Origin: a virus
IMG/VR virus record: IMGVR_UViG_3300042879_001150
Span: 1 to 30,705 of that record
Direction: 5' to 3' (one strand)
DNA: 30,705 bases
The notes beneath the pieces are model-generated. The model did not search any database. It was given only the letters and a program-made list of their open reading frames with translations, and was not told the DNA's origin. Position 1 is the stretch's first letter. Each line of letters opens with the position of its first letter. The translations under genes and the position numbers were made by a program. Positions 1 through 30,705 of this stretch are shown here, in pieces.

Positions 1-427
1 TTGAGTCGATGACCGTCCAAGTCGCATCATACCCGCTCTCGGCCAAGTCTTGCATAATGACTCCAAGTCCCGATCCAAGGAGATCGTAAACATTTTCAAT
101 GATGATGTATTTTGGGGAAGATTCACGAATAACTCGCAAGTAGTGCTTCCACAGTCCGCTTCTCTCTCCATGAATTCCAAGTTTATTTTTGTTTGTGTTT
201 GCTCTTGAGATATCTTGGCAGGGAAAACCCCCTGTGATAACCCAAGGAGAAAACTCTGGTTTGAATGATGTGATGTCTCCATGAATTTTTGATTGTTTGA
301 AGTTTTTTCTTAACACCGCTTGAAGGCGGGGTTCGTATTCTACAAATGTATGGTCAAATTCTCCGGCCATTGATAGGCCCAACGCAAATCCTCCGATTCC
401 AGAAAATAAGTCTAAGTGTGTTTTCAT
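1..427 (-). CDS. DNA (cytosine-5) methyltransferase, C-terminus cut by window edge
   Basis: The protein transfers a methyl group from S-adenosylmethionine to carbon 5 of cytosine in DNA. The visible 142 residues start MKTHLDLFSGIGGFALGL, which is the SAM-binding motif I of this family. The catalytic Pro-Cys loop GGFPCQDIS is at residues 66-74 (Cys70) and the ENV motif VI is at 111-113. Together these are diagnostic. The target-recognition domain lies beyond the window. The ATG at 427 is separated by one base from a dispersed palindrome (429-444), which is immediately preceded by the stop codon of the upstream gene on the same strand. It is probably the third gene of a leftward early operon with the initiator-like gene. 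A phage methyltransferase may protect the DNA from host restriction, but no cognate nuclease is visible here. Confidence 0.93.
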   Translation of the reverse strand, partial: MKTHLDLFSGIGGFALGLSMAGEFDHTFVEYEPRLQAVLRKNFKQSKIHGDITSFKPEFSPWVITGGFPCQDISRANTNKNKLGIHGERSGLWKHYLRVIRESSPKYIIIENVYDLLGSGLGVIMQDLAESGYDATWTVIDS

Positions 428-1542: not shown

Positions 1543-1926
1543 TCAAGCCAATTTCTCGCCGATCACAATCTTTTCTACTTTCCCCTGCGCCCAGTCATCA
1601 ATCTCGTCCATCATGTCTACCCAGAAAGCCTCGGCATCCTCCTTGTTCTGTAGTTCCAGCACGGAGAGTTTGCGCTCGTAGTTGCTCGCCTCATCGTTGA
1701 TGTAGACCTCCAGCATGTAGACCTTCTGGGCGACTCCAAGGAAAGTAGCGAGGAGGGCGTGACCGGACGGGCGGCAGGCTAGGACGATCTCCTTGTCCAC
1801 TTGGGCGGGGATATCGTAGCTCATCACGATGCCCTCACCGAGTAGCTTGGAGAAGGCGAGGTTGGAGATGATGATGCTCGTCTGCGCGGCGGTCGCGATG
1901 AATCGGCCTACTTCTTCGTCATTCAT
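1543..1926 (-). CDS. Unknown 127-aa early protein
   Basis: I do not recognise this family. The 127-aa product is acidic in its C-terminal half (DDWAQ-type segment) and begins MNDEEVGRFIATAAQ. There is no signal peptide, metal motif or clear membrane segment. The ATG at 1926-1924 is chosen over the much longer upstream extension. The extension is Arg/Ser/Pro-rich, antisense to the XRE regulator, and looks untranslated. With this start, the first A of the ATG is the last base of the dispersed palindrome at 1926-1941, so the start codon overlaps the site. It is the first gene of the leftward operon and diverges from the XRE regulator, the position where phages often encode an early regulatory or anti-host protein. 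That role is inference only. Confidence 0.7.
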   Translation of the reverse strand: MNDEEVGRFIATAAQTSIIISNLAFSKLLGEGIVMSYDIPAQVDKEIVLACRPSGHALLATFLGVAQKVYMLEVYINDEASNYERKLSVLELQNKEDAEAFWVDMMDEIDDWAQGKVEKIVIGEKLA

Positions 1927-1988: not shown

Positions 1989-2303
1989 ATGGATCACCCA
2001 CTACTAGGAGCCTACGAAGCCTGCATGGAAGCCTACGAGAGAAGTCGGATGTTGCGGCAGGCCGGGAGGGCCGTATTCGGCAAAGAGTTGAAGTTGGCGA
2101 GGAAAAATCTCGGCATGACCGTGAGGGAGATGGGCAGCGTGGTGGGGACAACAGGAGCGTTAATCAACCAGATCGAGACCAGCAGCCGATCTATCTTGAA
2201 GCTGGATCAGGTCAAGAAAATCGTGGAGCTATGCTTAAACGGAAAACACCAATCAGAGCAAAAAGCGGATTCAAGAAGCGAGGGGGAAGGCTACGAGCGG
2301 TAA
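1989..2303 (+). CDS. XRE-family helix-turn-helix transcriptional regulator
   Basis: This 104-aa protein has a Cro/CI-type helix-turn-helix at about residues 30-75: FGKELKLARKNLGMTVREMG, then VVGTTGALINQIETSSRSI, then a third helical segment (LDQVKKIVELCL). There is no C-terminal peptidase domain of the LexA/CI type, so it would not be self-cleaving. The gene follows a recognisable promoter and diverges from the leftward early operon, with a copy of the dispersed palindrome between them. It is therefore the best candidate in the window for the protein that binds that palindrome, but there is no direct evidence. Its 3' end overlaps the HNH gene by about 70 bases. A Cro-like, repressor or antitoxin-like role are all possible. 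Confidence 0.85.
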   Translation: MDHPLLGAYEACMEAYERSRMLRQAGRAVFGKELKLARKNLGMTVREMGSVVGTTGALINQIETSSRSILKLDQVKKIVELCLNGKHQSEQKADSRSEGEGYER

Positions 2304-4121: not shown

Positions 4122-4533
4122 TTATTATAATAAGACCACCTTTGAGCGCAAAGACATCGCGCAGGAACTGATTGATCTCTGGACCGAGACGAGCAACCCC
4201 AAGCTCGGCGAGTATGAGTTAACCCCACCCGCCCCATCACCAGATGCGGTATGGGACAATGGGCAATGGGTCATCCCTCCTCCTCCGACATACACCGCAG
4301 AGCAATGGCTCGCCAAAGAAGGCTACGGCCCCACTCAGTTGGTTACATTGCTTGATCTATTCGCAGAGCTTACCGCTGCCGCCAAGGTATCGCCCAAGCT
4401 CGATGAGGTGAAGGCATGGACGAACGCTATCCTCGGAGAGTATGTGCAGAGCAACCAGCCCAAAGAAGACTGGGGTGCCGCGCCATTTGGATTCAACGAG
4501 ACGGTGATCGAAGCCTACGGGTTGCTCGCCTAA
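4114..4533 (+). CDS. Unknown 139-aa protein, possibly an appendage assembly protein
   Basis: I do not recognise a specific family. The sequence has a Trp/Pro segment at about residues 46-57 (WDNGQWVIPPPP), followed by EQWLAKEGYGPTQLVTLLDL and an amphipathic helical C-terminus. Small Trp- and Pro-containing proteins encoded right after a fibre gene are often fibre-assembly chaperones, and the 8-base overlap with the LamG gene suggests translational coupling. That function is inference. The gene converges with terminase, and the two stop codons overlap by four bases (4530-4533), leaving no room for a terminator between them. Confidence 0.65.
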   Translation: MPNYYNKTTFERKDIAQELIDLWTETSNPKLGEYELTPPAPSPDAVWDNGQWVIPPPPTYTAEQWLAKEGYGPTQLVTLLDLFAELTAAAKVSPKLDEVKAWTNAILGEYVQSNQPKEDWGAAPFGFNETVIEAYGLLA

Positions 4534-6371
4534 TCCTCGCCCCACGAATCTGAGGAGTAGGCATCCTCTTCGCTATCGGGTTGAATCTTATTTTCGGGTC
4601 TAGCCCAGAAGCGGTCGGTAGGCACAGTTTTATCGGTTCCGATAAAAACAAGTCCGTAGCGGCGAGCCATCTCGACCATATAGATGAAGCTGTCGGAAAG
4701 GTCTGGAGAGTAACCAGTTCTGCCCTTGAGGTCATCCTTTGTTTCGATGGACATCTTCTTATTCTTGGTGCGCCACCTACGCAGGCATAGCTCGCGTCCG
4801 AGATCGCTAGCCGGGTCCAGCCCATAGATCACCTTGGCCTTCAAACCGTGGTAGACAGAAAAGAAGTATTCCGAGACAAGGCGATCATAGACCTCATTAC
4901 AAGGTCGCTTATCCACATCCGCCGCGATTCGGTCGGTAGGCTTACCCATAGAAGAGATAAGAGCGATAGAGTGCCCATTGGGATCAAAGCGCAGCCATTC
5001 GCGGATGATCGCTTGGCCCACGCGCCCACCATCTCCGCTCACATCCATACCAAAGCGTTTCGGTTCCACCCCATATCTGCGGCAAATATCGACCACTTTC
5101 TCCGCAAGCTGGACATCAAACTCTTGGGCTGCGTTGGCAGAGAGTTGGATCACTTCTTGGTGCTGGAGGTAGAGAACCCTCGCGCTCGTTCCCCTGACAT
5201 TACCGAGCTTACCGATAGAGAGAACACAGCGATCCCCGCCTACAGTAAAGGCGGTATCAAAGCCAGCTACCTTCACAAACCCATCGGCAGACCAGATAGG
5301 TTCTTCAAGAGTATCGGCATTTCTGATCACATCGGAGGTGAGAATCGTCTGATTGAAGCCAGACTTCGGCCACCAGCCGATAGCATTGCGAACATAGTCC
5401 ACAGCATTCTCATCGCCGTAAGACATCTTAAGCATATCGGCCTGCTTCTGGCGATCCATGAGGAACGGGAATGGAGGAGGCTCGCTGGCAGGAGCGTCGA
5501 AGTTGGGAGACTTGTTGCCATTGTAGAAGAGGCAGATACCCGTCTCCGTCTCCCATTGGAGCATATCGGCATTCACAGTATCAAAGGTCGAGGCACCTTT
5601 GGGCATACACCAGCGGGTATGAGGATTGTCGCCAGTAGAAGGGTTGCCGATTCCAATAAAGACCTTATCGTTGTTGGAGGAAAGGTTCTGTCTGGCACTT
5701 AGCGCACCCATCTCCATTTCCGGCAACTCATCCATAGCAAGACGGATGCGCTTATTCTTACGACCACGCGTAGTGTCGATGGCTTTTTGCCCCTCATTAC
5801 CTTGAGGAAAGGCCAAGGCTTTGATAGCATTTTGGTATTCTTTTTCATCTTGTCCACTTGCTCCACCCCACACGATCATGTGGCGATAGTCGATTAGGTT
5901 TCCAATTCTATGTCTGGCACACTTGTAGAGTTTCGAGATGATACCCCAGATACGATCCTCCGAAGCACCGAGGGTAGTAGTCGCCACCCAAGAGGAAGTG
6001 CAATGAGGAGCCGCGCACCAGTCGAGGTAAATCCAGACAGAGACAGGGAACGACTTGCCAGCAGACGCCGCGCCAGCCAGCACCACATCGTCATTATTGC
6101 ACAGAGACTCAAAGGTGCGGAGCATTGAATGGTTGGTATACCCGCGATTCTTGATAATGACATCGGTCGGCCATTGGAGTTGGACGGCTTTGATAAAATG
6201 CTCAAATGGGGACATGAGTTTGAACTGCGAGAGATCGACATTCTTCTCGATGCAGAGCGTCTTGCCATACTGCCCGCGAGTGAGGGCGTAGCAGTATAGC
6301 TCAATCTGAAGATCGTCCATGTTATCGGGGAATAACATGCCGTAGCGTTGTATACCTTTTTTGCTTGACAT
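4530..6371 (-). CDS. terL: Terminase large subunit (packaging ATPase and nuclease)
   Basis: This 613-aa motor protein uses ATP hydrolysis to pump DNA into the procapsid and cuts the concatemer. Visible motifs are Walker A GAASAGKS at about residues 100-107, Walker B IRLAMDE at 209-215, and the RNase H-like nuclease acidic residues in VAGFDTAF (Asp at about 372), FGMDVSGDGG (about 443) and SPDLSDSF (about 560). The length is within the usual 450-650 range. ATG 6371 is chosen; ATG 6407 would overlap the divergent gene more deeply. It is oriented against all other packaging and capsid genes, an unusual arrangement. A copy of the dispersed palindrome lies inside the gene at 4630-4645. No small terminase is recognisable; the gene at 6410 is the nearest candidate. 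Confidence 0.95.
   Translation of the reverse strand: MSSKKGIQRYGMLFPDNMDDLQIELYCYALTRGQYGKTLCIEKNVDLSQFKLMSPFEHFIKAVQLQWPTDVIIKNRGYTNHSMLRTFESLCNNDDVVLAGAASAGKSFPVSVWIYLDWCAAPHCTSSWVATTTLGASEDRIWGIISKLYKCARHRIGNLIDYRHMIVWGGASGQDEKEYQNAIKALAFPQGNEGQKAIDTTRGRKNKRIRLAMDELPEMEMGALSARQNLSSNNDKVFIGIGNPSTGDNPHTRWCMPKGASTFDTVNADMLQWETETGICLFYNGNKSPNFDAPASEPPPFPFLMDRQKQADMLKMSYGDENAVDYVRNAIGWWPKSGFNQTILTSDVIRNADTLEEPIWSADGFVKVAGFDTAFTVGGDRCVLSIGKLGNVRGTSARVLYLQHQEVIQLSANAAQEFDVQLAEKVVDICRRYGVEPKRFGMDVSGDGGRVGQAIIREWLRFDPNGHSIALISSMGKPTDRIAADVDKRPCNEVYDRLVSEYFFSVYHGLKAKVIYGLDPASDLGRELCLRRWRTKNKKMSIETKDDLKGRTGYSPDLSDSFIYMVEMARRYGLVFIGTDKTVPTDRFWARPENKIQPDSEEDAYSSDSWGED
4630..4645. promoter_or_regulatory. 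Dispersed palindrome, site 4, inside terL
   Basis: TTATCGGTTCCGATAA, near the 3' end of terL. The coding strand reads through it as Ile-Gly-Thr-Asp-Lys. Confidence 0.6.
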
Positions 6372-6781: not shown

Positions 6782-6806
6782 CGGAATGACTATCGTTAAC
6801 GATAAT
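6778..6806 (+). promoter_or_regulatory. Promoter of the portal gene, overlapped by the palindrome
   Basis: TTGACG (6778-6783), a 17-bp spacer and GATAAT (6801-6806) form a near-consensus sigma70 promoter. The palindrome at 6790-6805 covers most of the spacer and the -10 box, so a bound protein would exclude polymerase. The expected start is about 1-2 bases before the portal ATG at 6815. Confidence 0.5.
6790..6805. promoter_or_regulatory. Dispersed palindrome, site 5, before portal
   Basis: CTATCGTTAACGATAA, ending 9 bp before the portal ATG and overlapping its predicted -10 box. Confidence 0.75.
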
Positions 6807-6814
6807 ACCGAACT

Positions 6815-9325
6815 ATGATCGACGCTGGCTCTGATAATTTTACGCTCGCAACTCTTGGTCCCGATGGGGAAGTGCCAGCAACGAGGATAGGTTCAGCGAA
6901 CGTCGCTTGGAATATTGCCGATCAGCTAGCTAGAGATAACGTGGGTCGCGAGCAAAAGCGCATCCGAATCTTCAAGCAATACAATCGGTTTCCGCCGACC
7001 GAGTATAGCAAGCTCGCGCAGAAGACACTTCCTTTTAGCTCCAACGTGTGTTGGGGCCAGCTAGAATTTATTGTAAACAACCAGAAGTCTTCATATTATG
7101 ACGTCATTACAGAACGCCAAGCGTGTGCGGAAATCAAAACCAAATTCGGGAACGAAAGGGAAAGACTCGTTCACTCGGAAAACATCACGAAAGCGTTCGA
7201 CCACGCAATCCGCGAATGGCCCGGTTACCTTTATAATAAAGAGCAAGACATCACGTCGATGCTGCTATACGGAAAAGGAATCGGTATGTGGACAAGCCCG
7301 CTTGGGTGGATGCCAGAAGCCGTGCCGCTTTCCGACCTGCTTTTTCCATCAAATACGAAAGTGGACTTCTCTAATCTGGAAGAGTTTGTGCGGCGAGTTC
7401 GACTCACCCCCTACCAACTCTACAAGGTCATCAAGAATCGGGAAGCCGCCGAAGCACTTGGGTGGAATGTTGATGCAGTCATAGATGCGATTAGGTTCCA
7501 GAGGAGCTTCCTTGAGACCAACAAAACCCGCGAAGAATTCTACCGCACGATCAGCGAGGCTAGCTTCAACTGGAACCTCTCGGTCAACCAGACTATCGAC
7601 CTCTACGAGATTTACTGGCAGGAGTTCGACGGCAAGATCAGCAAGGCAGTCGTGTTGCAAGACTACACACCGATTGTCAGCAATATCAAAAGCAAGTTGC
7701 GCGGAGCGGAGAAGATCACCGATGCCGAAGTCCGCGACCAGCATGGGTTCATGCAACTCAACATCGGGTTGTTCGATAGCTGGGATCAGATTCTCTACAT
7801 GGTTACAGACTCAGTTGGGTCGGGACTCTTCCACGACATCAAGAGCCAAGCGGAGGCGTGTTTCGTTGCGTGTCGCCAGTATGACTTCACGATGAATAGC
7901 CTTGTCGATGCGGTGCGGCTCAACTCCATGCTACTCTTGGAAGGCCAAGCCCCCGATGCTACTAAGACGCTCAAGCAGATGGAATGGCTCCCAATGAGCA
8001 TCATGCCAGACGGGGCCAAGTTCAGCCAGAACCGTATTACCCTGCCCGTCCAAGAGAGCATGGCATTCATGCAATTCTACATGGGCGATCTCTATCGCGG
8101 GATGGGGCAGTATCGCATCAACGCTCCCACCAGCGGAGGAGCGCAACGCACCCGAGGAGAAGCAGAGTTGGATGCCGCCGAGTCCGCCAAGCTATCTGGC
8201 ACACAAATTAGACGGTTCAACGAGTGCGAAACGCTATACTTCCGCGAACTCTACCGACGCTTTGTTTCAGCTACTCGCAATGATGATGGGTATCAGTATG
8301 TCAAACGATTCTACGAAATTCTTGAGGAGCTTGGAACGCCGAAGGAGGCTGCTTCCTTTAAGAACATCACCTCAATCCGAAGCAATCTCATCAACGGGGC
8401 GGGAAGCCCGAGCTTCAAGCTCATTACTGCGGAGAGGCTGGTCAACCTTACGAGCATTACTCCCGCGAACGAAGGGCAGGAAAATGCAGTCAAAGACGCC
8501 ATCGCCGCGCTAGCAGGCCGAGATAACGTGGAGCGGTATCGCAACACCAAGGTAGCGAAGATTGACGATACAGATCGTATCATCGGTTTCGAGAACGCAG
8601 GCATGACCGATGTGTTCGTCAACCCGCAGAACTTCCCTGTACTGCCCACCGATCCTCATATAGAACACGCGACTGGTCACTTCAACGACCTCATGTTGCA
8701 GATTCAGACCAACATGCAAGCGATCCAGATGGGTCAGCCCGATGTCAACGAGCTTGCCAAGGCAGTTCGCTCCATCCAGTTCAAGGGTGGGCACATCATG
8801 GCGCACGTCGAATTCATCGCCAAGGACGAAGGCAAAAAAGATTTCCTCAAGCAGTTCATGCAAGGAATGGGCGAAGCGGGCAAGATGGGCGACCAAATCG
8901 CGCAGGTCTACCAAGAGATGGTGCAAGCCCAGCAGCAACAAGGTGGTCAAGGTATGAGCGAAGAGGACATCAAGCTCCAATACCTCGCAGCCAAGTCTGG
9001 TATCGAGATCGACACCAAGCAGAAGCTCGCCGACATCTCCATTGGCAAGGCTTCGATCAGCCACGCTCAACGCACCGAGCAACGCGAGAAGCAAGGCATC
9101 ACACAACTCGCCTTGCAGAAAGCCAAAGCCCGCGCCGAGATTCAGAAGCAGATGGCAAAGGCAAAGCCCATGCAACAGGCTCCAGAAATGGAAGAAGAAG
9201 AGGAAGAGATCGAAGTCGAGGAAGAAGAGACTCCAGAAGAGGAAGCGCAAGAAGAACTTATGGAGGAACAGATGGAGCAGAATACCCGAGCGGGAATGCA
9301 GAACACAACACAACCAACTGAATGA
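6815..9325 (+). CDS. Portal (head-tail connector) protein
   Basis: The 836-aa portal forms the dodecameric ring at one capsid vertex through which DNA enters and leaves. The assignment rests on length, position directly before scaffold and capsid genes, and family-like features. These are an N-terminal helical region with the surface-exposed PPTEYSKLAQKTLPFSSNVC segment, a central GKGIGMWTSP region, and a long helical C-terminus with Gln-rich segments. The C-terminus (about 785-836) is a highly acidic Glu-rich tail, which may interact with scaffold or terminase. It is larger than T7-type portals (about 540 aa) and closer to P22-type ones (about 725 aa). The start lies just after a promoter and palindrome, and its stop overlaps the next ATG (ATGA). 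No Shine-Dalgarno is visible. Confidence 0.85.
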   Translation: MIDAGSDNFTLATLGPDGEVPATRIGSANVAWNIADQLARDNVGREQKRIRIFKQYNRFPPTEYSKLAQKTLPFSSNVCWGQLEFIVNNQKSSYYDVITERQACAEIKTKFGNERERLVHSENITKAFDHAIREWPGYLYNKEQDITSMLLYGKGIGMWTSPLGWMPEAVPLSDLLFPSNTKVDFSNLEEFVRRVRLTPYQLYKVIKNREAAEALGWNVDAVIDAIRFQRSFLETNKTREEFYRTISEASFNWNLSVNQTIDLYEIYWQEFDGKISKAVVLQDYTPIVSNIKSKLRGAEKITDAEVRDQHGFMQLNIGLFDSWDQILYMVTDSVGSGLFHDIKSQAEACFVACRQYDFTMNSLVDAVRLNSMLLLEGQAPDATKTLKQMEWLPMSIMPDGAKFSQNRITLPVQESMAFMQFYMGDLYRGMGQYRINAPTSGGAQRTRGEAELDAAESAKLSGTQIRRFNECETLYFRELYRRFVSATRNDDGYQYVKRFYEILEELGTPKEAASFKNITSIRSNLINGAGSPSFKLITAERLVNLTSITPANEGQENAVKDAIAALAGRDNVERYRNTKVAKIDDTDRIIGFENAGMTDVFVNPQNFPVLPTDPHIEHATGHFNDLMLQIQTNMQAIQMGQPDVNELAKAVRSIQFKGGHIMAHVEFIAKDEGKKDFLKQFMQGMGEAGKMGDQIAQVYQEMVQAQQQQGGQGMSEEDIKLQYLAAKSGIEIDTKQKLADISIGKASISHAQRTEQREKQGITQLALQKAKARAEIQKQMAKAKPMQQAPEMEEEEEEIEVEEEETPEEEAQEELMEEQMEQNTRAGMQNTTQPTE

Positions 9326-9567: not shown

Positions 9568-10856
9568 GCGACACCAACAACGAAACAGCGGAGATCATTA
9601 ACGATCTCAAAGCCAAAGCAAGCATCCCGATCAAGGGAAACACGGCAGACTTCCTTGCGAAGTTCACGCAAAAGCAAACCGACGAAGGTAAGCCTAGCGC
9701 GGATAACATCAACGATCCTATGTTGGGTCGCCAGCAAGAGGAGGTATCAAATGATACTGAGGAAGAAATTATCGGTAACGATAACGAAGAGAAGAAGCCC
9801 TTGATCAGCGTTGAAAAGAAAAAGCCGGGTTTCGTGCAGAAACAGATTGAGGAGAACAAACGCCTCAAGGAAGAGTTGGAAAAGTTCAAGACTGACGAAG
9901 TTCCTAAGTATACCCAGAAGATTGCCGAGCTTGAGCAACTGGTAAAGAACAGCCAGACCACGGCGGAAGCCAACCACTACCAAGAGCAGCTTAATAAAGC
10001 CAACGAGGCTAAAGTTGAATTAGAGTCCCAGCTATCAAAGGAAATCGCAGACCTTAAGAGTAAGGTGGAGTTCTACGACATCACGGCTAGCGAAGACTTT
10101 CAGCGCACCTATGTTGCTCCCATCCAAGAAAGCTACAATGAAGCTAAGAAGATTCTTGGGAATGACCAGCAACTCCAAGCATTGTTCGGAAGGGCGATTG
10201 CAGCGAACGCGGCGGCATACAACCACACCAACGAAGCAGATAGACAGCAATCATTTCAAGAACGAGATGAAGCATTGGATGAATTGACCAACCAACTTAA
10301 TACTTTCAAGCAGGTCCGTTTCGCCGACCAGTTGAACAGCTATCTCAAAGCGATTGATAACCACGCTAACGCCCTCTACAACTACCAAGCCACCAAGCAG
10401 GAAATCTCCCGCAAGGCGAAAGAGAAAGAGCTAAAAACTCGCACAGAGTTCTTGAGCACATGGCGCAACAGCTACAAGGAGCAAGCGCAAGCGGTGGAGA
10501 GCGAGATTCAGATCACCGAAGACATCGCCGAATATATGAAAGAGAAAGGCATCAAGTTCGATACTAGCCGAGATGATGCCATCGCCCTCGCCGCTACTCA
10601 ACAAAGTGACGAGGTAGCCAGCGTGGATGAGATGAATCGTCTTATCAATCAGGGCCGCAGTTATAAAAAACTACAGGCACTTGTAAAAGCGCAGGCAGAG
10701 ATGTTGAAAGAAAAAGACGATTATATCAACAAGCTCAAGGGTGCATCTAAGACCACCTCGGCTCCCGCCACCACAGAGACCAAGCAACGAGTGAGCATCC
10801 CAGAAGGTTTGGCTGCAAAGCTGGCTAAGTTCGGACCACGGTTGGCTACTGTCTGA
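9564..10856 (+). CDS. Scaffolding-like protein
   Basis: This 430-aa, very charged and helix-rich protein contains long predicted coiled coils, notably at about 85-175 (KQIEENKRLKEELEKFKTDE, then KIAELEQLVKNSQTTAEANH, then KVELESQLSKEIADLKSKV). It has a low-complexity acidic N-terminus and a basic Pro/Thr-containing C-terminus ending in IPEGLAAKLAKFGPRL, a likely capsid-binding tail. Its position between portal and the putative capsid gene matches a scaffold that directs procapsid assembly and is later lost. It is coupled to the previous gene by ATGA. A dispersed palindrome lies inside the gene at 9769-9784. A strong terminator follows the stop. The role is inferred from architecture and synteny. 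Confidence 0.8.
   Translation: MSDTNNETAEIINDLKAKASIPIKGNTADFLAKFTQKQTDEGKPSADNINDPMLGRQQEEVSNDTEEEIIGNDNEEKKPLISVEKKKPGFVQKQIEENKRLKEELEKFKTDEVPKYTQKIAELEQLVKNSQTTAEANHYQEQLNKANEAKVELESQLSKEIADLKSKVEFYDITASEDFQRTYVAPIQESYNEAKKILGNDQQLQALFGRAIAANAAAYNHTNEADRQQSFQERDEALDELTNQLNTFKQVRFADQLNSYLKAIDNHANALYNYQATKQEISRKAKEKELKTRTEFLSTWRNSYKEQAQAVESEIQITEDIAEYMKEKGIKFDTSRDDAIALAATQQSDEVASVDEMNRLINQGRSYKKLQALVKAQAEMLKEKDDYINKLKGASKTTSAPATTETKQRVSIPEGLAAKLAKFGPRLATV
9769..9784. promoter_or_regulatory. Dispersed palindrome, site 6, inside the scaffold gene
   Basis: TTATCGGTAACGATAA, identical to sites 1 and 2. It is read as Ile-Ile-Gly-Asn-Asp-Asn. A weaker inverted repeat, GTATCAAATGATAC, lies just upstream at 9744-9757. 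Confidence 0.6.
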
Positions 10857-12920: not shown

Positions 12921-12936
12921 TTATCGGAACCGATAA
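12921..12936. promoter_or_regulatory. Dispersed palindrome, site 7, before the first collagen-like gene
   Basis: TTATCGGAACCGATAA, one base after the previous stop (12919) and four bases before the next ATG (12941). Confidence 0.75.
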
Positions 12937-12940
12937 AACC

Positions 12941-14362
12941 ATGAACTGCTCCTGTTTTACAAATCAAACGCCAGAACAGCAACGCTATTCCATCTACAGC
13001 ACATTGATGGACGCTGCGTTGCAAGAAAAAATCTCCGCAAGTTGCTTTGTCGTATTAAGCGAATCAGAGCAAGTCTGCCTTATAAACGATGCTCTAAACA
13101 AAGTATTTGAATTTGGAAACTTTGGCGGAGAAGGATTGCCCGGACTACCCGGCCCAGAAGGAGATCAAGGCCCTACCGGCCCTCCGGGGCCTCCGGGGAA
13201 TGACGGAGAACAAGGGATACAGGGTGAAATAGGTATTCCGGGACCGCAAGGAGGCGTTGGACCGGGCATTGATTTCCAAGGAACAGTTGCTAATCCAGCA
13301 GCACTCCCTACCCCATCCACGCAAGGTTTTGCCTATTTCGTTACAAGCACAAGCTCAATCTGGATTTACAATGCAGCAGGAGTATGGGTTAATGGTGGCG
13401 TCATTCAAGGACCACCCGGCATTGAAGGTCCAGAAGGGGACCAAGGCCCTCCCGGCCCCCCCGGCCCTACCGGCCCTCCGGGTCCTCCCGGCCCTCCCGG
13501 AACTCCCGGAGCTACTGGGCCAGCAGGCGAAGGCTTCTCTGCTGCAAACATTGTAATCGCAAGGCGCGGAGATAACTTAATTACAAAGTATGCTGAAGCA
13601 GTTGCGTTGGTCCCAGCCCCATCAGTTACAAATCGCTGCTTCCTAATCATTCTGCCCGGAGAATACACAATCGGCTCAACGCTGAATGTGAACACAGATT
13701 TCGTAGATGTGATCTGCATGGAAGATCAAGAAAACACGCAGTATGCAATCATCAATGGAAGCATCAATGTTACTGCGACTAATGTAAAAGTCTCTGGCCT
13801 TAATGTAACTGGATCACTCAATTGCAGCGGTGCGGCAACACAAATTTTCGCCAACTGCAAGGCGGGAGCGAATAGCTTTGGATATTCTACATCTGCACTA
13901 ACAGTAAACAGCAAGTTCATCAATTGCACGGCAGGCAATAACAGTTTTGGTTCCTCAACCAATACGATTGCCACGACGAGCGCAGAGTTTACCAACTGCA
14001 CTAGCGGGACGAATAGTTTCGGATACGGAACGAGCGGAACGGTTGCCGGAACATTCACAAACTGCACGGCAGGCGTGAACAGTTTCGGTCATGGAACTAG
14101 CGGAGTCATTACTGCAAGCGGAACATTCCGCGACTGCACAAGCGGAACCGCCAGCTTTGGTGGATCGACCAATGGTGTTGCAAGTGGATCGTTCTACGAT
14201 TGCACCGGAGGTGAATATAGCTTCGGTGGAAATACTGGAGGCTCACTCACAGGTTTAGTCGCGTGGTGCAAAACCACTACTGGGGGATACGCGAACCAGA
14301 CTGGCGCAGGTCGGGTCCGTATGTCCTTGGATGCTACTAATACAATCATAAACATTCCTTAA
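12941..14362 (+). CDS. Collagen-like fibre protein 1
   Basis: This is a 473-aa trimeric fibre candidate. Domains in order: a Cys-containing N-terminal region ([14 protein letters not shown], about 1-62); a Gly-X-Y collagen segment at 65-109; a small globular insert ([20 protein letters not shown] and following, about 111-155); a second Gly-X-Y segment at 157-198; a linker with [20 protein letters not shown]; then six repeats of about 20-24 residues with a Cys and SFG (NCTAGxNSFG type, about 300-450), which suggest a beta-solenoid receptor-binding tip. It ends with [16 protein letters not shown]. The collagen helix would give a stiff trimeric stalk. It is a paralogue of the next gene, which starts two bases downstream. 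The palindrome just before its ATG may regulate both. Confidence 0.85.
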
Positions 14363-14364
14363 AA

Positions 14365-15813
14365 ATGTCAAACTGCACATGCCCTCCCACGGTAGAAGAT
14401 CAGGAGTATGAGATTTATAAGACACTAAATACTGTCGCTGAAAACGCAGAGTTTTTTTCAAGCGCATGCTGGAAGAATTTGAGCGATGATCAGAAGCTGT
14501 GTTTGGTCACTCGCTCCTTCATTGATGTAGTAGATACTGTAGGCGGAAGAGGGCCGCGAGGCCCACAGGGGCCAGAAGGCCCAATCGGAGACGAGGGTCC
14601 ACAAGGTCCGGCGGGATTGCAAGGCTTGCAAGGCATTCGTGGCATTCAAGGCATCGAAGGAGTTGAGGGTCCAGCAGTAGATTTTCGTGGAGCAGTTCCA
14701 AATGCCGCTGCGCTTCCAATACCATCGACTGCTGGCTACTGCTATTTTGTAGAAGGAGAAGGATCGTATTATGTATACGATGGCTCTGCTTGGACAGGAT
14801 ATGGGCCACTTCAAGGACAACCGGGTCCGCAAGGCCCTCCCGGAGTAGATGGCCCTCCCGGAGTAAGTGGCCCTCCCGGCCCAGTCGGACCAGATGGGAG
14901 TGCTGGAATACCCGGAACGCCCGGTCTACCGGGACCTTCGGGAGGTTTCCAAGCTAGCAATATTATTACAGCAAAAGTCGGTGATAATCTTGCGACTAAA
15001 TATGCCCAAGCCGTTTCGCTTGCTACATCCATTGGAGCTACGGCAACAAACCGCGTGGCATTGGTTATCATGCCGGGAAACTATTCCTTATCTACACAAT
15101 GGAATATAAACACTGAATTTGTTGATGTGATTGGGTTGGGTTCAAGCCCCAAAAATCCTAAAGTAATAATAACAAGTAGCGCAACAACAGGTATAAATGT
15201 TACAGCAAACGATGTAAGAATAATCGGTTTGCAAGTTTCCGCCGGGTCTTTCCCAATAGAAATAGCAACAAATAAACCTCTTCAATATTTTCAAAACTGC
15301 ACAGCAAATGGAACTGGATTTGGACGAGCTACTATATCCGGTCAAATATACAATGGAACATTTGTAAATTGCGTTGCCACAAATGGATTTGGTTATAGCA
15401 CAAACGGATCAAGACCAACAGCAGCTGGCACTTATATTAACTGCGCTGTTACAAATGGATTTGGATATTCGTTTACCGCTGGTTCTGGAACAAGAGCAGC
15501 AAATGCATCTGGAACTTTTATAAAATGCAATGCAACCAATGGATTTGCCGGGAGTGCAGGCGCATTTAACTCCGGAGGATTTTCAATTGCGTCTGGAACA
15601 TTTATTGATTGCACCGCATCAGTATTCGCAAGAGATGATTTTACAGGAGTGGCAAAAAACTGCGTTGCTGGAGCAGACTCATTTGGCCCAAGAGTAAATA
15701 CAGGCCAAATCATCAAATGCAAAAAAACTTCTGGGGCGTTTCCAACACTAACTGGAAGCGGCTTCATAAGATTCTCGCTTGACGGGAGCAACAACATCGT
15801 AAACCTTGGGTAA
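14365..15813 (+). CDS. Collagen-like fibre protein 2 (paralogue)
   Basis: This 482-aa protein is colinear with the preceding one. It has a Cys-containing N-terminus ([20 protein letters not shown]), collagen segments at about 60-104 and 150-194, the same insert ([20 protein letters not shown]), the same post-collagen linker (ANIxxAKxGDNLxTKYAxAV type) and a similar end ([16 protein letters not shown]). The C-terminal solenoid repeats are diverged (NCxATNGFG type, six units) and this DNA is visibly more AT-rich than the rest of the gene. That suggests the tip region was exchanged or is evolving fast. Having two fibres with the same stalk but different tips would broaden receptor range; this is inference. 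Confidence 0.85.
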
Positions 15814-19142: not shown

Positions 19143-19618
19143 AGCCAAAGTATAAAGAAGTTAGTCGGCAAACCCCTAACTTCTCTAGGGGAAGGATACT
19201 CACCCCCAAGGCTGTAGTCCTCCACCACACATCAGGGAGCTACGCAGGGAGTGTCGATTGGTGCACACGTCCAGAGAGCATGGTCAGCTACCATGTGATC
19301 ATCGCAGAGAATGGAGAACGCACGGTGCTAGCAGGAGACAACCAGAGGACATGGCATGCAGGGAGGAGCTTCTGGAGGGGCAAGCCAGACTTGAATAGCT
19401 GGAGCCTCGGAGTCGCTTTCGCCGGGGATACCTACGAAAAGCCACTAACGAAAGAACAGATTGAATCCGCCATAGAGTATCTTCTCCCCAGAATGAAGAA
19501 ACTATCGTTAACGATAAAGGATGTGACTGACCACAGGACAGTCAGCCCGAATCGGAAAAACGACTTGAAACCGTCAGAATATGACAGGTTCATGCAAGAA
19601 TTGAAACTACACCTATGA
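19139..19618 (+). CDS. N-acetylmuramoyl-L-alanine amidase (endolysin, Amidase_2)
   Basis: The enzyme cuts the amide bond between N-acetylmuramic acid and L-alanine in peptidoglycan, releasing phage. The 159-aa sequence shows the Amidase_2/PGRP zinc-site motifs: VVLHHTSG (His29-His30), SYHVIIAENGE, WHAGRS (His73), NSWSLGVAFAG and DHRTVSPNRKNDL (His132 and Asp142). It is similar in length to T7 lysozyme. There is no signal peptide, so export depends on the holin. The GTG at 19139 is chosen because it overlaps the previous stop (GTGA) exactly as the other cassette junctions do; an in-frame ATG at 19028 would lie deep in the lipoprotein gene. A dispersed palindrome lies inside (19502-19517) and forces codons CTA-TCG-TTA. 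Confidence 0.92.
   Translation: MKPKYKEVSRQTPNFSRGRILTPKAVVLHHTSGSYAGSVDWCTRPESMVSYHVIIAENGERTVLAGDNQRTWHAGRSFWRGKPDLNSWSLGVAFAGDTYEKPLTKEQIESAIEYLLPRMKKLSLTIKDVTDHRTVSPNRKNDLKPSEYDRFMQELKLHL
19502..19517. promoter_or_regulatory. Dispersed palindrome, site 9, inside the amidase gene
   Basis: CTATCGTTAACGATAA, read as Leu-Ser-Leu-Thr-Ile-Lys, a different codon phase from sites 4, 6 and 11. Confidence 0.65.
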
Positions 19619-20519: not shown

Positions 20520-20535
20520 CTATCGTTAACGATAA
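20520..20535. promoter_or_regulatory. Dispersed palindrome, site 10, before the second fibre block
   Basis: CTATCGTTAACGATAA ends one base before the ATG at 20537. It separates the lysis and phosphoesterase genes from the second fibre block. Confidence 0.75.
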
Positions 20536-22259: not shown

Positions 22260-24256
22260 TGGCAACTGAGGGATCAGTATTCGATGGTTTTCTTTCTGTA
22301 GTCGCCCAAGATGCCGCTACACATCCATCGTATTTGCCTGAGTTCTTTGTCAGCGAATCGGTCAATCGCACATTCCGTGGGGGCATCAATCGCACTAGGC
22401 CAAGCATTCGCCAGCTAAGATTGTTGGCAGGAGAGAACCAATCGGCCACTATCGTTAACGATATTGAGCGTGGAAACTTTCAGGGCGCATATCCATATCG
22501 CAGGACAAAATATAACTCCGCTGATGGCATCTTGATGTCGGTGTCTGGGGTTATCTACTTTCTGAAGATCGTAAACAACCAAGCATTCGCCTACAAACTC
22601 ATTGAAGGGAATGACCCCAGCATGATGCACACATGGTTCGTGCAGGCAGAGGATCGGGTGTATATCCAGAATGGCTACCAGAACGCAATAGCGTGGGGAG
22701 GAGAGCTTGGCACCACAGAAGCAACCAACCTTATAGTTGGCGAGACATACGAGATTGTAACGGTAGGAACGACAAACTTCACTTTAATCGGCGCATCGTC
22801 CAACGCAGTAGGAACAAAGTTTATCGCCACAGGAATAGGGACAGGGACAGGAGTAGCCAAGGCAATAGCATATAGGCTCAATCCGTTTCTTAACAAGATG
22901 CCGATTGGCACGATCATGGAGTATGCGTTTGGCCGAGTATTCGTGAGCGACAAGTTCAACCAAATCTACGCTTCGGATATTATCTACGGAGCAGGGTTCA
23001 CCAACACGCTGAATACAGAGAACTTTACAGAAATCACCTACTGGGCAGAGGGCGGCGCGTTCTCAACTCCATCCATGATGGGGAATATTACAGGAATGAA
23101 GGTGATGCCTGATTTGGGAGATAATCTTCGCGGCCAAGGTTCACTTGTGGTATTGTGTGGAGGCGGTGCATTCTCAATGGATGTTTCTATACCAAGAAGC
23201 CAATGGAATACATCAAACATTCAACGCATCTCATTGCTTGGGCGAGGATGCACAAGTCCATACTTGGCATTGGTAAACTCGGAGCTTTGGTTTAGATCAC
23301 ACGATGGTTGGGCGTTCTATTCAAATAGCCAAGCCGAATTCTACCGCTACTTCTCCATGAGAAAGCTCTCTAGGGAAGTAAACAAGTGGGTAGATAGAGA
23401 TACACCGTGGCTGAAACAGTTCGCAAGCACGATGTATTTTGACAACTACCTGATCAGCACAGTCTCTCCAGAAACTAAAAGAACAGACGCGCCGGGATTG
23501 AACAGATACCATAGAGGAATGGTTGTTCTCGACCTAGACCAAGGCTCCAGCCCTGCGCCAGACGCACAACTTACATTTCGCTGGAATGGGCTATGGACTG
23601 GCATCCGCCCTACTCATCTGCTCACGGCGCAAATCAACGGAGAGAAGAGGGCATTCGCATTCAGCTTTGACAATGACAACAAGAACCGCTTCTATGAAGT
23701 GACAAGCAAGTTCGGGGACGATTATGGGCAGAATGGGACTGTGCCAATCAAAAGTTTCTTTACAACTGGAAGGTATGACTTCAGCAAATCACAACAGACA
23801 AACAGATTCCTACGCAAAAGAATCTCTGGAGGAGAAATGTGGTTGAGCGAAATACCTAGCAATGTATCATCCTATGTTGAATATAGGGCCGATAGCAATC
23901 CATGTTGGTCGGAGTTAAAGCCGGAAACCACCTACGGATGCCCTCCATGCTCTCCAGTTCTCAAGGCAGAATGCACCCCTCGATTGGGAGGCAACCTTTA
24001 CAAACGCTACAAGTTTACAACTCCTGATCCATCTGAATGCAACGAGATCACAGAGATACCTTCAATTGAAGGAAGCGAGTTCCAGATCAAAGTATCATTG
24101 GAAGGTGTTGCCACAGTAGATCGCGTGAGGTTGATGGCCAACATTAAGAACAATGAAGACAGTCCGATAGGGGATTGTCCAGAAGATCAATATGAATGCC
24201 CAACAAATTTGTGTTGCCAAGAAAGATATTGGGACTACTCTATTGCCACATCGTAA
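22259..24256 (+). CDS. Tail nozzle/stabilisation-like protein with inserted domain
   Basis: This 665-aa protein resembles podovirus tail nozzle proteins. It has an N-terminal RPSIRQLRLLAGENQ region, repeated strand-rich blades (GVIYFLKIVNNQAFAYKLIE, ISLLGRGCTSPYLALVNSEL and LWFRSHDGWAFYSNSQAE) and SMRKLSREVNKWVDRDT, consistent with a beta-propeller body. At about residues 150-200 a compact NLIVGETYEIVTVGTTNFTL unit interrupts the frame between IAWGGE and AYRLNPFLNK, as an inserted module. The C-terminus has a CPPC and a terminal run of Cys residues. A dispersed palindrome lies near the 5' end (22449-22464). The ATG shares a base with the previous stop. The nozzle role is inferred from synteny with adaptor and ejection genes. 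Confidence 0.75.
   Translation: MATEGSVFDGFLSVVAQDAATHPSYLPEFFVSESVNRTFRGGINRTRPSIRQLRLLAGENQSATIVNDIERGNFQGAYPYRRTKYNSADGILMSVSGVIYFLKIVNNQAFAYKLIEGNDPSMMHTWFVQAEDRVYIQNGYQNAIAWGGELGTTEATNLIVGETYEIVTVGTTNFTLIGASSNAVGTKFIATGIGTGTGVAKAIAYRLNPFLNKMPIGTIMEYAFGRVFVSDKFNQIYASDIIYGAGFTNTLNTENFTEITYWAEGGAFSTPSMMGNITGMKVMPDLGDNLRGQGSLVVLCGGGAFSMDVSIPRSQWNTSNIQRISLLGRGCTSPYLALVNSELWFRSHDGWAFYSNSQAEFYRYFSMRKLSREVNKWVDRDTPWLKQFASTMYFDNYLISTVSPETKRTDAPGLNRYHRGMVVLDLDQGSSPAPDAQLTFRWNGLWTGIRPTHLLTAQINGEKRAFAFSFDNDNKNRFYEVTSKFGDDYGQNGTVPIKSFFTTGRYDFSKSQQTNRFLRKRISGGEMWLSEIPSNVSSYVEYRADSNPCWSELKPETTYGCPPCSPVLKAECTPRLGGNLYKRYKFTTPDPSECNEITEIPSIEGSEFQIKVSLEGVATVDRVRLMANIKNNEDSPIGDCPEDQYECPTNLCCQERYWDYSIATS
22449..22464. 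promoter_or_regulatory. Dispersed palindrome, site 11, inside the nozzle gene
   Basis: CTATCGTTAACGATAT, about 190 bp after the ATG, read as Thr-Ile-Val-Asn-Asp-Ile. The last base deviates, but the TATCG-N4-CGATA core is intact. Confidence 0.6.
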
Positions 24257-24751: not shown

Positions 24752-24931
24752 ATGACACCACTAAACGGAACAGACCCAAAATTGATCAGCGGCGGGGCTA
24801 GCACTCGCGGCACTATTCGTGAAGGCATGGGCAATAAGCCCAATCTTGGCGCGAAGTCACCCAAAGCCTTCTCCTCCGCCCCTCTTCCGACTGTCGGCAA
24901 GATGGTCAGCAAAGTCGGCGGACCTCACTAA
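24752..24931 (+). CDS. Unrecognised 59-aa basic protein
   Basis: This small gene begins ATG 24752 in the CT-ATG context used by other genes here and ends TAA 24931. The product starts MTPLNGTDPKLISGGASTRG and is basic and Gly/Ser/Lys-rich, with no membrane segment. Support is the A-rich leader (AAACCAAAACCAAAACT), GC-rich third positions like its neighbours, and position in a gap that would otherwise be empty. The stop is followed directly by the palindrome that leads into the next ATG. Function unknown; a minor virion protein is plausible. Confidence 0.6.
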   Translation: MTPLNGTDPKLISGGASTRGTIREGMGNKPNLGAKSPKAFSSAPLPTVGKMVSKVGGPH

Positions 24932-24947
24932 TTATCGTTAACGATAA
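24932..24947. promoter_or_regulatory. Dispersed palindrome, site 12, filling the whole gap
   Basis: TTATCGTTAACGATAA is a perfect palindrome. It starts at the base after the TAA at 24929-24931, and its final A is the first base of the ATG at 24947. It is the most complete copy. Confidence 0.8.
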
Positions 24948-25906
24948 TGCCATCTACCTTTTTAGAGATGGCCGAGGCCGTTCGCGGATTTGTCGGCGAT
25001 AGTGGATCGTGCAACATTGAGAGGGCAAAGAAAGCCGTCAATGCTGCGCGTGAGCTATTGTGGGACAAGCGAGGGTGGCTATCCACGGCAGAATATTTCC
25101 GCGTGTGTTGTGCGAACAACTGCTTCACTCTGCCAAATCGCTACGAGCAGATCAAGCTAGCGTGGTATGGGAAGCACAACATTAGTTTAGCCGATGAATG
25201 GTTCACGGCGACCGATGCGTATGCTAATACCCAAGACCAATCCTGCCACCGTCTGATTACAGAGGCTGGCGGGAGACATGTTATATTCCAAGACTACACG
25301 AAAGCACCATACCAGATTGCTGTGATGGTTGAACATTTTGATGATGTTGGGGTGGAGCTAGCATTCCAAGCGCAGGACGAGTATTCAACATACCACACAG
25401 TCCCTATCACAACAGTTATGCCTCCGAACAGAGCGTTCTCCAGCATCCGAGTTAAAGGACTCCGCGCTGTGAGCAAGCCAAGAACCAAAGGCAGGGTAAG
25501 GGTGTATGCTTACAACCCAGACATCAACTCAAGTCTGCTGCTCGCAATCTACCAACCACAGGATATCAATCCGTGGTTCCGCCGCTTCCGTCTGCCACGG
25601 CAATGCAACTACATGACGATCTATGCCAGCCTCAAGTATTTCGATCTTGAGGATGATAGTGATCTGGTGGAGTTCAAGAAGGACAGCATGATCTTTGCTG
25701 TGCTGGCACTCAACTCGCGTGAGAACCGGAAGGCACAAGAGTTCTTGACCAACCTTGGGCTGGCAATATCGGAAGAGGAGAAGGCAATTGAGGACGCAGA
25801 GATACCAACGGCAAGCCCGATCAAGTTCGTTGACTCTCGCAGGCCCGAGAATCTGATCGACAGGCAAGCCCTCTTTGGAGCGCAAGATTATTATTTCTGG
25901 CCATGA
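24947..25906 (+). CDS. Head-tail adaptor-like protein
   Basis: This 319-aa protein is placed between nozzle and ejection genes, where podoviruses encode the adaptor ring between portal and nozzle. The N-terminus is helical (TFLEMAEAVRGFVGDSGSCN, followed by ERAKKAVNAARELLWDKRGW), like the helical adaptor of T7 gp11 and P22 gp4, and is followed by a strand-rich middle. A helical C-terminal region (KDSMIFAVLALNSRENRKAQ, then LGLAISEEEKAIEDAE) ends in a Phe/Tyr/Trp-rich tail (ALFGAQDYYFWP). The length is greater than T7 gp11 (196 aa), so the call is from synteny and helical pattern rather than motif. It overlaps the next ATG (ATGA). Confidence 0.65.
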   Translation: MPSTFLEMAEAVRGFVGDSGSCNIERAKKAVNAARELLWDKRGWLSTAEYFRVCCANNCFTLPNRYEQIKLAWYGKHNISLADEWFTATDAYANTQDQSCHRLITEAGGRHVIFQDYTKAPYQIAVMVEHFDDVGVELAFQAQDEYSTYHTVPITTVMPPNRAFSSIRVKGLRAVSKPRTKGRVRVYAYNPDINSSLLLAIYQPQDINPWFRRFRLPRQCNYMTIYASLKYFDLEDDSDLVEFKKDSMIFAVLALNSRENRKAQEFLTNLGLAISEEEKAIEDAEIPTASPIKFVDSRRPENLIDRQALFGAQDYYFWP

Positions 25907-28770: not shown

Positions 28771-30705
28771 TGGCAATCACATTTTTAGACGAAGAGGAAA
28801 TCACAACGCAAACATCACCAAGGAAAATTACATTTCTTGATGAGGAAGAAGTTGTTGATCAACAGACAGAAATAGAAAAAGGCACATCATTCAGCCAAGA
28901 GGTTGCTCAACTCGGCTCTGCCTTTACGGAATCACTTGGTCGCCCGCTTGAGAATATGGGCGAAGGCTTTGAGGTGGTCGGCTTCCAAGGCGTGGCTAAC
29001 GCTCTTAAAGGTGCAGTCACAGAGCCAGAGAACTATGTCTCCGCAGCCCAAAGGTTCATGGAGCCAGATCCGGGTGAGTCGCAGTTCTTGGGATTCGCGT
29101 GGCAGTATGCACCCCGTGCTGCGGTCGAGCAGACAGGCCAAGCCTTGGCTGCGATTGGTGGCAGGGCTGCTGGAGCTTTAGTTGGCGGTGCTGTAGCTGG
29201 TCCTCCCGGCGCAATTGCAGGTGGATTGCTCGGCCCCGCTATCATCGGAGCAGCCCAAGTCATCGGCCCAGTAGCCAAGGAACGCGCTCGCAATAACGGA
29301 CGCGAGATTCCAAACAACCAAGATTTGGCTGGGGCCACGCTCACCGCCCTCGGGTCTGGTGCGCTGGATGCTATTGGAGCAAAGTATCTACCCGGTGGGG
29401 AAAAGGCGACTGGAAAGTTCTTCAAGCGAGTCGCTTCTGGCTTTGTTGGTCAAGCTGGGACAGAAGCTCCACAATCTATTGTTGAACAAGCAGGCGGAAC
29501 GCTTGGAACGGAAACTGGGCTGAACATCAACGCCAAGCAAGCCATTGGCGAAGGGCTTATCGGTGGCACAACTGGCGCAGGGCTGAGTGCAGTTACCTAC
29601 CCATTCACCAAAGACCCAGAGAAGCAAACCATTCGCACTCCCGAGGAAGCCAAGGAACTAGACATCGACGCCAAGTCCAACGAGGAAGCGGTGAGTTTGA
29701 TGGGCCAACCCGGCGATGACCAGAACGCCGAACTCCGCACGACTGTTAAAGAGATCGAACGTGAGATTGCCAACAACGAGACGCTGATTAGTGGGCTTGA
29801 GCCTAACGATCCCGAGCGCACTAGGCTTGAGCTACAGAACGCCGAAGCCAAGAAGGTGGCCGCAAGAGTGAGGGGCGAGCTAGAGCAAACTGTTGGTCTT
29901 ACCCCCGCAGAAACCGAGCAAGCCCGACTCGCCAGAGAGATTGCCGCGCCTGCCGCTATCACTCCCGCGCCCACAGCAGAAGCTCCCGCAGTAACGCCTG
30001 CCCCAGTATCGGCAACGATAACGCCCGCTGGAGAGGCCGCACCCGTAACGCCAGCGCCAGCAGAAGCTCCCGCTATCACGCCTGCTCCTGTAGAGGAATC
30101 CGAGTTCGCTGAACTAAAGAACTTGATGGAAAGGCGAGGACAAGCGCAAAGTAAAGTGAAGGGCGTTAAGTTCTCTAAAAAAGATGAGGCACGATACAAT
30201 GAGTTATTGCCAAAGTATCGCTCCCGACTTTTTGAAACAATAACTCCAGAAGCCGATCCTGTTGTATGGAAGGATATAGAGGGTAATGATATTAAGGTTT
30301 CACAGAAAGGAACATTCTACACAGTAGAAAATGGCAGAGTTAGAACAGGTCCAGCGTTCCAATCTGAAGGATTTATTAAAGATGTAAGCCCTCAACCAGT
30401 ATCTGCCGTAGTCGTAGAATCTAATAATGTCCCACTCCCCGAAGGCTACACCAAGCAAGGCGACTTGTATGTCTACCAACCCGCCGCACCAACCGCACCC
30501 ACTCCAGAAGCCGCGCCTGCTCCAGAGGTTCCAGCGGAGATTGCAGTAGGAAGCCGCATCAAGCTAGGCCGCTCACCGCAGACCTATGTGGTAGAGGAAG
30601 CCATCCCGCAGACAGAGCGAGAGATTGAATTGGGTGAGCAGTATTACAATGTAAAGAACGAGAGAACTGGAGAAGTCCAGACGGTAGAGGCTATGGATAT
30701 GAAGC
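28770..30705 (+). CDS. Large internal virion or polyvalent protein, 3' end beyond window
   Basis: At least 645 aa are visible. It starts with a duplicated acidic motif: ITFLDEEE at residues 3-10 and again at 20-27. A helical region follows with a Gly/Ala-rich hydrophobic segment at about 125-160 (AAIGGRAAGALVGGAVAGPP and following), which could cross the membrane, then a Glu-rich helical region (about 305-380), a Pro/Ala/Thr-rich repeat linker (ITPAP, EAPA, VTPAP units, about 393-448), and charged regions separated by a second Pro-rich linker (about 568-590). The architecture is that of very large ejected or polyvalent phage proteins carrying enzymatic domains further downstream, none of which is in the window. 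The palindrome at 30006-30021 lies inside. Confidence 0.72.
   Translation, partial: MAITFLDEEEITTQTSPRKITFLDEEEVVDQQTEIEKGTSFSQEVAQLGSAFTESLGRPLENMGEGFEVVGFQGVANALKGAVTEPENYVSAAQRFMEPDPGESQFLGFAWQYAPRAAVEQTGQALAAIGGRAAGALVGGAVAGPPGAIAGGLLGPAIIGAAQVIGPVAKERARNNGREIPNNQDLAGATLTALGSGALDAIGAKYLPGGEKATGKFFKRVASGFVGQAGTEAPQSIVEQAGGTLGTETGLNINAKQAIGEGLIGGTTGAGLSAVTYPFTKDPEKQTIRTPEEAKELDIDAKSNEEAVSLMGQPGDDQNAELRTTVKEIEREIANNETLISGLEPNDPERTRLELQNAEAKKVAARVRGELEQTVGLTPAETEQARLAREIAAPAAITPAPTAEAPAVTPAPVSATITPAGEAAPVTPAPAEAPAITPAPVEESEFAELKNLMERRGQAQSKVKGVKFSKKDEARYNELLPKYRSRLFETITPEADPVVWKDIEGNDIKVSQKGTFYTVENGRVRTGPAFQSEGFIKDVSPQPVSAVVVESNNVPLPEGYTKQGDLYVYQPAAPTAPTPEAAPAPEVPAEIAVGSRIKLGRSPQTYVVEEAIPQTEREIELGEQYYNVKNERTGEVQTVEAMDMK
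30006..30021. promoter_or_regulatory. Dispersed palindrome, site 13, inside the large virion protein gene
   Basis: GTATCGGCAACGATAA keeps the TATCG-N4-CGATA core with flanking and central changes. It is read as Val-Ser-Ala-Thr-Ile-Thr, the same codon phase as site 9. Confidence 0.5.

Follow-up and report, generated by a model that had tools for sequence, protein, structure and literature searches.

The genome-wide arrays of binding sites described in phages belong to temperate ones, which use a lysogeny repressor. The Cluster A mycobacteriophages L5 and Bxb1 carry 20–30 repressor sites per ~50-kb genome in short gaps between genes (PMC6550527, PMC9283540), and in the SPbeta prophage the SPBRE site, read by the regulator MrpR, recurs across the genome (PMC10516654). 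Among chromosome-organising proteins, Noc binds through a helix-turn-helix (HTH) to 16-bp palindromes (NBS) at ~70 sites around the chromosome (PMC4331003, PMC8429893), and KorB of plasmid RK2 uses a ParB-family DNA-binding domain for long-range gene silencing (PMC11790492). The target of the regulator LmbU is also palindromic, CGCCGGCG (PMC6510168). Here, we describe an array in an uncultivated phage family without detected lysogeny genes, which is evenly spaced, is strongly selected inside coding sequence and, as predicted folds suggest, is probably read by a protein of the chromosome-organisation superfamily.

The window, that is, the whole stretch of 30,705 bases analysed, contains 13 exact copies of TATCGNNNNCGATA (TATCG-N4-CGATA), against a mean of 0.01 copies and a maximum of 1 in 100 dinucleotide shuffles of the window, and the reversed pattern has 0 copies in it. 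When up to three mismatches are allowed, few intermediates appear in the window, and sites are either near-perfect or absent. Five of the 13 sites are intragenic (4630, 9769, 19502, 22449 and 30006) and went unmentioned in the original prediction. The sites and the genes that bear on them are listed here, with strands given for genes.

429 to 444: site TTATCGGTAACGATAA, flanked by the stop codon of the O-like initiator gene (minus strand) and the ATG of the cytosine-methyltransferase-like gene (minus strand)
1543 to 1926, minus strand: 127-aa gene divergent from the XRE gene, its ATG sharing the end base of site 1926
1926 to 1941: site TTATCGGTAACGATAA, divergent control region of the 127-aa gene (minus strand) and the XRE gene (plus strand)
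1989 to 2303, plus strand: XRE-type HTH protein of 104 aa scoring above the cut-off of Pfam HTH_31, a competing candidate binder
2777 to 2792: site TTATCGTTACCGATAA, one nt past a stop codon
4630 to 4645: intragenic site TTATCGGTTCCGATAA, terminase-like gene, at offset 1726/1738 in most genomes
6790 to 6805: site CTATCGTTAACGATAA, 9 nt ahead of the 836-aa gene
6815 to 9325, plus strand: 836-aa gene, probably portal, an assignment from size and position alone, without a match in Pfam or PHROG
9769 to 9784: intragenic site TTATCGGTAACGATAA, 430-aa gene
12921 to 12936: site TTATCGGAACCGATAA, one nt past a stop codon
15815 to 15830: site CTATCGGAACCGATAA, one nt past a stop codon and 6 nt ahead of an ATG
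19502 to 19517: intragenic site CTATCGTTAACGATAA, endolysin-like gene
20520 to 20535: site CTATCGTTAACGATAA, one nt ahead of an ATG
22449 to 22464: intragenic site CTATCGTTAACGATAT, 665-aa gene, at offset 190 in 11/12 genomes
24752 to 24931, plus strand: 59-aa ORF (cluster 8), whose stop TAA precedes the focal site, found in 12/12 genomes
24932 to 24947: focal palindrome TTATCGTTAACGATAA, between TAA (24929–24931) and ATG (24947)
24947 to 25906, plus strand: 319-aa ORF (cluster 9), its ATG sharing an A with the focal site, common to the distant relative G018
30006 to 30021: intragenic site GTATCGGCAACGATAA, long ORF running off the window end

The cytosine-methyltransferase-like ORF (2–427, minus strand) occupies the slot beside the O-like initiator gene that holds a DnaB helicase gene in the relative G001, and although the neighbour differs, the palindrome at 429 stays at the end of the initiator gene. 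Inside that gene, three ~23-bp repeats (ACTAACGCGCGTTACCCCCACCC and variants) lie at 949–1022, which may be compared with the lambda-type origin within an initiator gene. The terminase-like gene (4530–6371, minus strand) encodes a Walker A-like GAASAGKS, has no significant Pfam or PHROG match, and lies on the opposite strand to the probable portal gene that follows it. Collagen-like Gly-X-Y repeats are found in two adjacent tail-fibre-like genes (13131–13510 and 14821–14943).

We recruited the family with the 836-aa gene as query, which gave 78 virus loci at 74–100% identity, all 78 of them with the motif. Eleven near-complete or long relatives carry 10–27 sites each, main-family records of at least 46 kb carry 17–27, and three relatives of 52.0–53.3 kb look complete, given their terminal redundancy of 123–127 bp. 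The GC content of the family phages ranges from 42 to 54%. Since ~105 of the ~115 virus stretches that hold the exact 16-mer encode family proteins, this sequence comes near to being a signature of the family and can serve as an almost specific marker of its members in metagenome data. We found no cultured relatives by tblastn with six proteins, no match to the family among plasmids and no relative in ~85,000 cellular genomes searched with the 836-aa protein; cellular genome contigs scanned with an 18-mer gave scattered single matches only. Models for integrase, resolvase and ParA (PF00589, PF00239, PF13614) detected none in 12 records, with positive controls, and two complete relatives contain no tRNAs. 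The family is uncultivated and apparently virulent. One Lake Erken MAG assigned to Cellvibrio includes a 3.6-kb phage contig (L256) with a gene for a protein 85% identical to the family, a weak link, perhaps due to mis-binning, and too weak for naming a host. Bacteroidota-type promoters (TAnnTTTG) are not enriched, and neither are Shine–Dalgarno-like sequences before starts (15% versus 12% random in 17 genomes); the latter, together with TTGACA-type promoter elements in the 17 genomes, would suit an unusual host or leaderless or coupled translation. No paper found in the literature describes the motif or the family, with dispersed phage motifs lightly covered.

The gap at 24929–24949 is filled entirely, as the original prediction had it: TAA at 24929–24931 is followed directly by TTATCGTTAACGATAA at 24932–24947, whose final A is the first base of the ATG at 24947. 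The similar fits that it had pointed out elsewhere are also there, on the minus strand at 447–425 (TAA 447–445, site 444–429, the single base 428, ATG 427–425), at site 1926, whose end base belongs to the ATG of the minus-strand gene 1926–1543, and at sites 2777, 12921 and 15815, which begin two bases past the stop ends at 2775, 12919 and 15813. Across the family the junction of 59-aa stop, site and 319-aa start persists while the middle bases of the site vary, with the site adjoining the stop directly (0 nt) in 11 of 12 genomes and 1 nt away in the other, and the ATG sharing the last A of the site in 8 of 12 and lying 3–5 nt further on in 4. We looked for relatives with the same gene pair but no palindrome and found none: all 14 junctions in loci not fetched via the motif carry the site, and so do 30 of 30 when the motif-fetched loci, a biased set, are included. 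Stop-to-site distances peak at 0 nt (n = 32) and 1 nt (n = 12) among 143 distinct gap sites. The proposal that position as well as sequence is under selection is supported by the presence of the focal stop–site junction in 12/12 genomes.

Packing into gaps is only part of the picture. Our own hexamer-based gene calls for 17 genomes place 152 distinct sites inside genes and 143 in gaps (~293–295 in total, depending on edge handling); non-coding sequence makes up 13.6%, so gaps are favoured ~3.6-fold but are not the rule. Fourteen of the 143 gap sites share a base with a start codon. The sites abut stops and starts because their ends, ...TAA|TTAT and ATAA|TG, fit a gene border without coding cost, and inside genes a 16-bp box would be compatible with two reading phases out of three: phase 1 is used 108 times, phase 0 51 times and phase 2, which would read TAA at the site end, once. 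Within the 665-aa gene, identity at third codon positions is 0.83–1.0 in the core versus 0.39 outside, and across all mapped intragenic pairs the core is kept in 62% at 56% flank identity, compared with a neutral expectation of 0.3%. Both the third-position identity and the core retention above neutral indicate that intragenic sites are under DNA-level selection, with retention incomplete and both gains and losses among genomes. Hence, the earlier reading of the tight packing holds for selection on position but not for gap-packing as the governing rule, given that intragenic positions are equally conserved (offset 190 in the 665-aa gene in 11/12 genomes).

The sites are also evenly spread. Spacing in the three complete circular genomes has a coefficient of variation (CV) of 0.52–0.54 versus 0.93–0.94 for random placement (P 0.0008–0.0016), with sites ~2.3 kb apart. 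The 11 relatives and the window are all more even than random (P < 0.03), in tests that are non-independent because the genomes share ancestry, and in the distant relative G018 the spacing of its nine sites is not even (CV 0.89). In B. subtilis, Noc molecules are estimated to be enough for oligomers of 1–2 kb per site (PMC4331003); by analogy, sites every 2.3 kb could tile the phage genome.

G018 is very divergent (TerL 33%, portal 23%), a search for its close relatives returned only itself, and its nine sites obey the same K/M rule at the variable site positions. As this near-complete genome has sites and no XRE gene was found in it, attention was drawn to another protein, encoded past the right end of the window.

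36572 to 37534 of G001 (rotated coordinates): cluster 13 protein, ~320 aa, near exonuclease and other DNA-metabolism genes

The cluster 13 protein occurs in 16/16 long motif-bearing genomes, and of the contigs recruited with it 59/59 carry the motif, holding 469 sites in 1,069 kb (2 and 0 for control patterns). G018 and the nine other genomes that reach 46 kb have only five proteins in common (terminase, portal, the 319-aa protein, a 123-aa protein and cluster 13), and cluster 13 is the sole predicted DNA-binding regulator among them; shared ancestry confounds this association of protein with motif, and the deep test relies on a single genome, G018. The protein is laid out as an N-terminal domain, a predicted central HTH domain of ParB/Noc/LmbU type and a C-terminal domain, and Y, T, V, S and R of its recognition helix, SYSTVS...R, are the same in all homologues, that of G018 among them. 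Its nearest NCBIfam family is LmbU (E 1e-9), with 30.8 and 38.6 bits far below the NF038070 cut-off of 125 bits, and its profile gave no match to the sequences of solved structures. In AlphaFold2 models (mean pLDDT 79 for G001 and 78 for G018), residues 142–261 of the G001 protein match Spo0J–parS at Z 9.2 and Noc–NBS at Z 8.7, and the separately modelled G018 homologue matches the same complexes at Z 8.6 and 8.4; ParB domains match both models, and the G018 model also matches KorB and SopB domains. The top Foldseek matches are Noc and Spo0J, with weak E-values (0.05–0.3). Z scores of 8–9 are moderate, and since Raf1, a Rubisco factor, reaches 8.5 too, the fold match is no proof by itself. Overall, there is moderate evidence, of predicted fold only, that cluster 13 has a ParB-type HTH DNA-binding domain. 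The CTPase domain, which drives the clamps of ParB and Noc, was not detected by Pfam, and the N-terminal model region, lightly probed, gave no ParB-N match, so ParB-like spreading or clamping is unsupported by the anatomy. Three ~200-aa uncultured-phage proteins in BFVD (A0A6J5MDD7, A0A6J5NPK0 and A0A6J5SUX0) have a predicted fold like that of cluster 13 (Foldseek probability 1.00), and their genomes may hold other dispersed palindromes.

The sites themselves suggest how they are read. The extended half-site is D-TTATCGKT, with T/G at position 7 and A/C at position 10, and in 372 distinct contexts the pairs TA (170), TC (86), GA (71) and GC (27) combine freely (chi-square P = 0.34). This pattern fits a symmetric protein dimer that would read each half-site separately. 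It also excludes an RNA hairpin in practice, since pairing would disfavour GA and TC. Palindromes are able to pair, and many of these lie at gene ends, where hairpins might serve as terminators or processing sites between genes, but with positions 7 and 10 independent just 56% of sites can pair there, the hairpin taken alone has a median energy of −3.2 kcal/mol, T-rich tails are rare, half of the sites are intragenic and there is no Rfam match, which makes RNA elements a most improbable account. Intrinsic terminators in particular, which call for a paired stem with compensatory changes and a U-tract, are rejected on independent half-sites and weak folding, and at the focal site we found neither promoter nor terminator. 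That the sites are promoters or core promoter elements of downstream genes, possibly of leaderless transcripts, is very unlikely. A few do overlie the −10 position 22–25 nt after TTGACA (1926 on the minus strand of the window; 9709 in G003), gap sites are enriched 5–22 nt before TTGACA, and the Shine–Dalgarno figures (15% versus 12%) would suit leaderless messages; however, only a minority of sites have a nearby promoter, the focal site has none, and 152/293 are intragenic.

Among protein readers, the XRE repressor (1989–2303) could bind the sites as operators or stoperators in an immunity or pseudolysogeny switch. It is an HTH_31 protein that adjoins a site in a divergent promoter region and is found in most genomes, yet it is absent from G018, which demotes it as the binder; its recognition helix varies (TGALINQIE, TGSFINQIE, TGQLISQIE) while the core site is constant, and neither the 12 records without integrase, resolvase or ParA nor the ~85,000 cellular genomes without a relative speak for lysogeny. 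We therefore consider the XRE switch unlikely. A 70-aa HTH gene (cluster 29) was likewise demoted as a binder, as it was not found in G008, G009, G020, G022 and G024. Less probable still, by our judgement, is that the sites mark the DNA for packaging, replication or recombination and are read by a different phage protein or a host protein. Even genome-wide spacing and the presence of TerL among the five common proteins would agree with such marks, but no small terminase was identified among the common proteins, a host binder would need constancy across phages of 42–54% GC, and we found no cellular genome in which the motif is concentrated.

We consider it probable that the palindrome is the site of a symmetric phage-encoded binder, cluster 13 being the likeliest, and that the sites form a roughly even genome-wide array of operators at promoters and scaffold or roadblock elements elsewhere; the array, its conservation, the way the half-sites behave and the occurrence of cluster 13 with its predicted fold are observed, and both the binding of cluster 13 to the palindromes and the effect of binding are what we infer. 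A symmetric DNA-binding protein would contact the two half-sites independently, at a roughly even array of 17–27 sites in each family genome. Sites placed at promoters, such as 1926, would be operators. There the site overlies the −10 region of a minus-strand promoter-like sequence with TTGACA 23 nt upstream, one of the back-to-back TTGACA-like boxes that serve the divergent 127-aa and XRE genes, and binding should therefore shut the minus-strand promoter. Other gap sites lie 5–22 nt upstream of TTGACA, and several follow terminator-like sequences. Away from promoters the sites must act otherwise, and might block the passage of RNA polymerase along the DNA or nucleate a nucleoprotein scaffold over the whole genome.

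Compared with known systems, the array resembles L5 stoperators in number, with 17–27 dispersed sites in main-family records of at least 46 kb versus 20–30. The likeness to L5 drawn in the original prediction goes no further: L5 stoperators are asymmetric 13-bp sites whose orientation matters, each bound by a monomer and lying in a short intergenic space (PMC9283540, PMC6550527), whereas here 16-bp palindromes have equivalent half-sites and half are intragenic. L5 and Bxb1 are also temperate, with integrase or parABS, and no such genes were found in 12 records, so membership of the L5 type fails on asymmetry, intergenic placement and temperate genes. SPBRE differs as well, with ~ten 15-bp promoter-region sites and a recombinase-like repressor in a lysogen. 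LmbU is the closest sequence family to cluster 13 and has the same N-terminal, central DNA-binding and C-terminal layout, but its members are actinomycete antibiotic-cluster activators with few promoter targets, and the phage proteins score far below the family cut-off. KorB, a structural match to cluster 13 at Z 5–6, has a CTP-binding domain and acts with KorA; on RK2 it has fewer operators, of a different sequence. Noc and ParB–parS differ in that the phage protein has no detected CTPase domain, no ParA was found, the site sequence is another one and the genome is that of a virus, but the 16-bp length and symmetry of the target agree, as does the predicted fold of the central domain. Tentatively, then, and as a possibility that we hold to be rather less likely than the binding array itself, a virulent lineage may organise or silence its whole genome via a CTPase-less ParB/Noc-like protein at ~20 even 16-bp palindromes, selected even inside structural genes, as a phage counterpart of Noc and KorB arrays.
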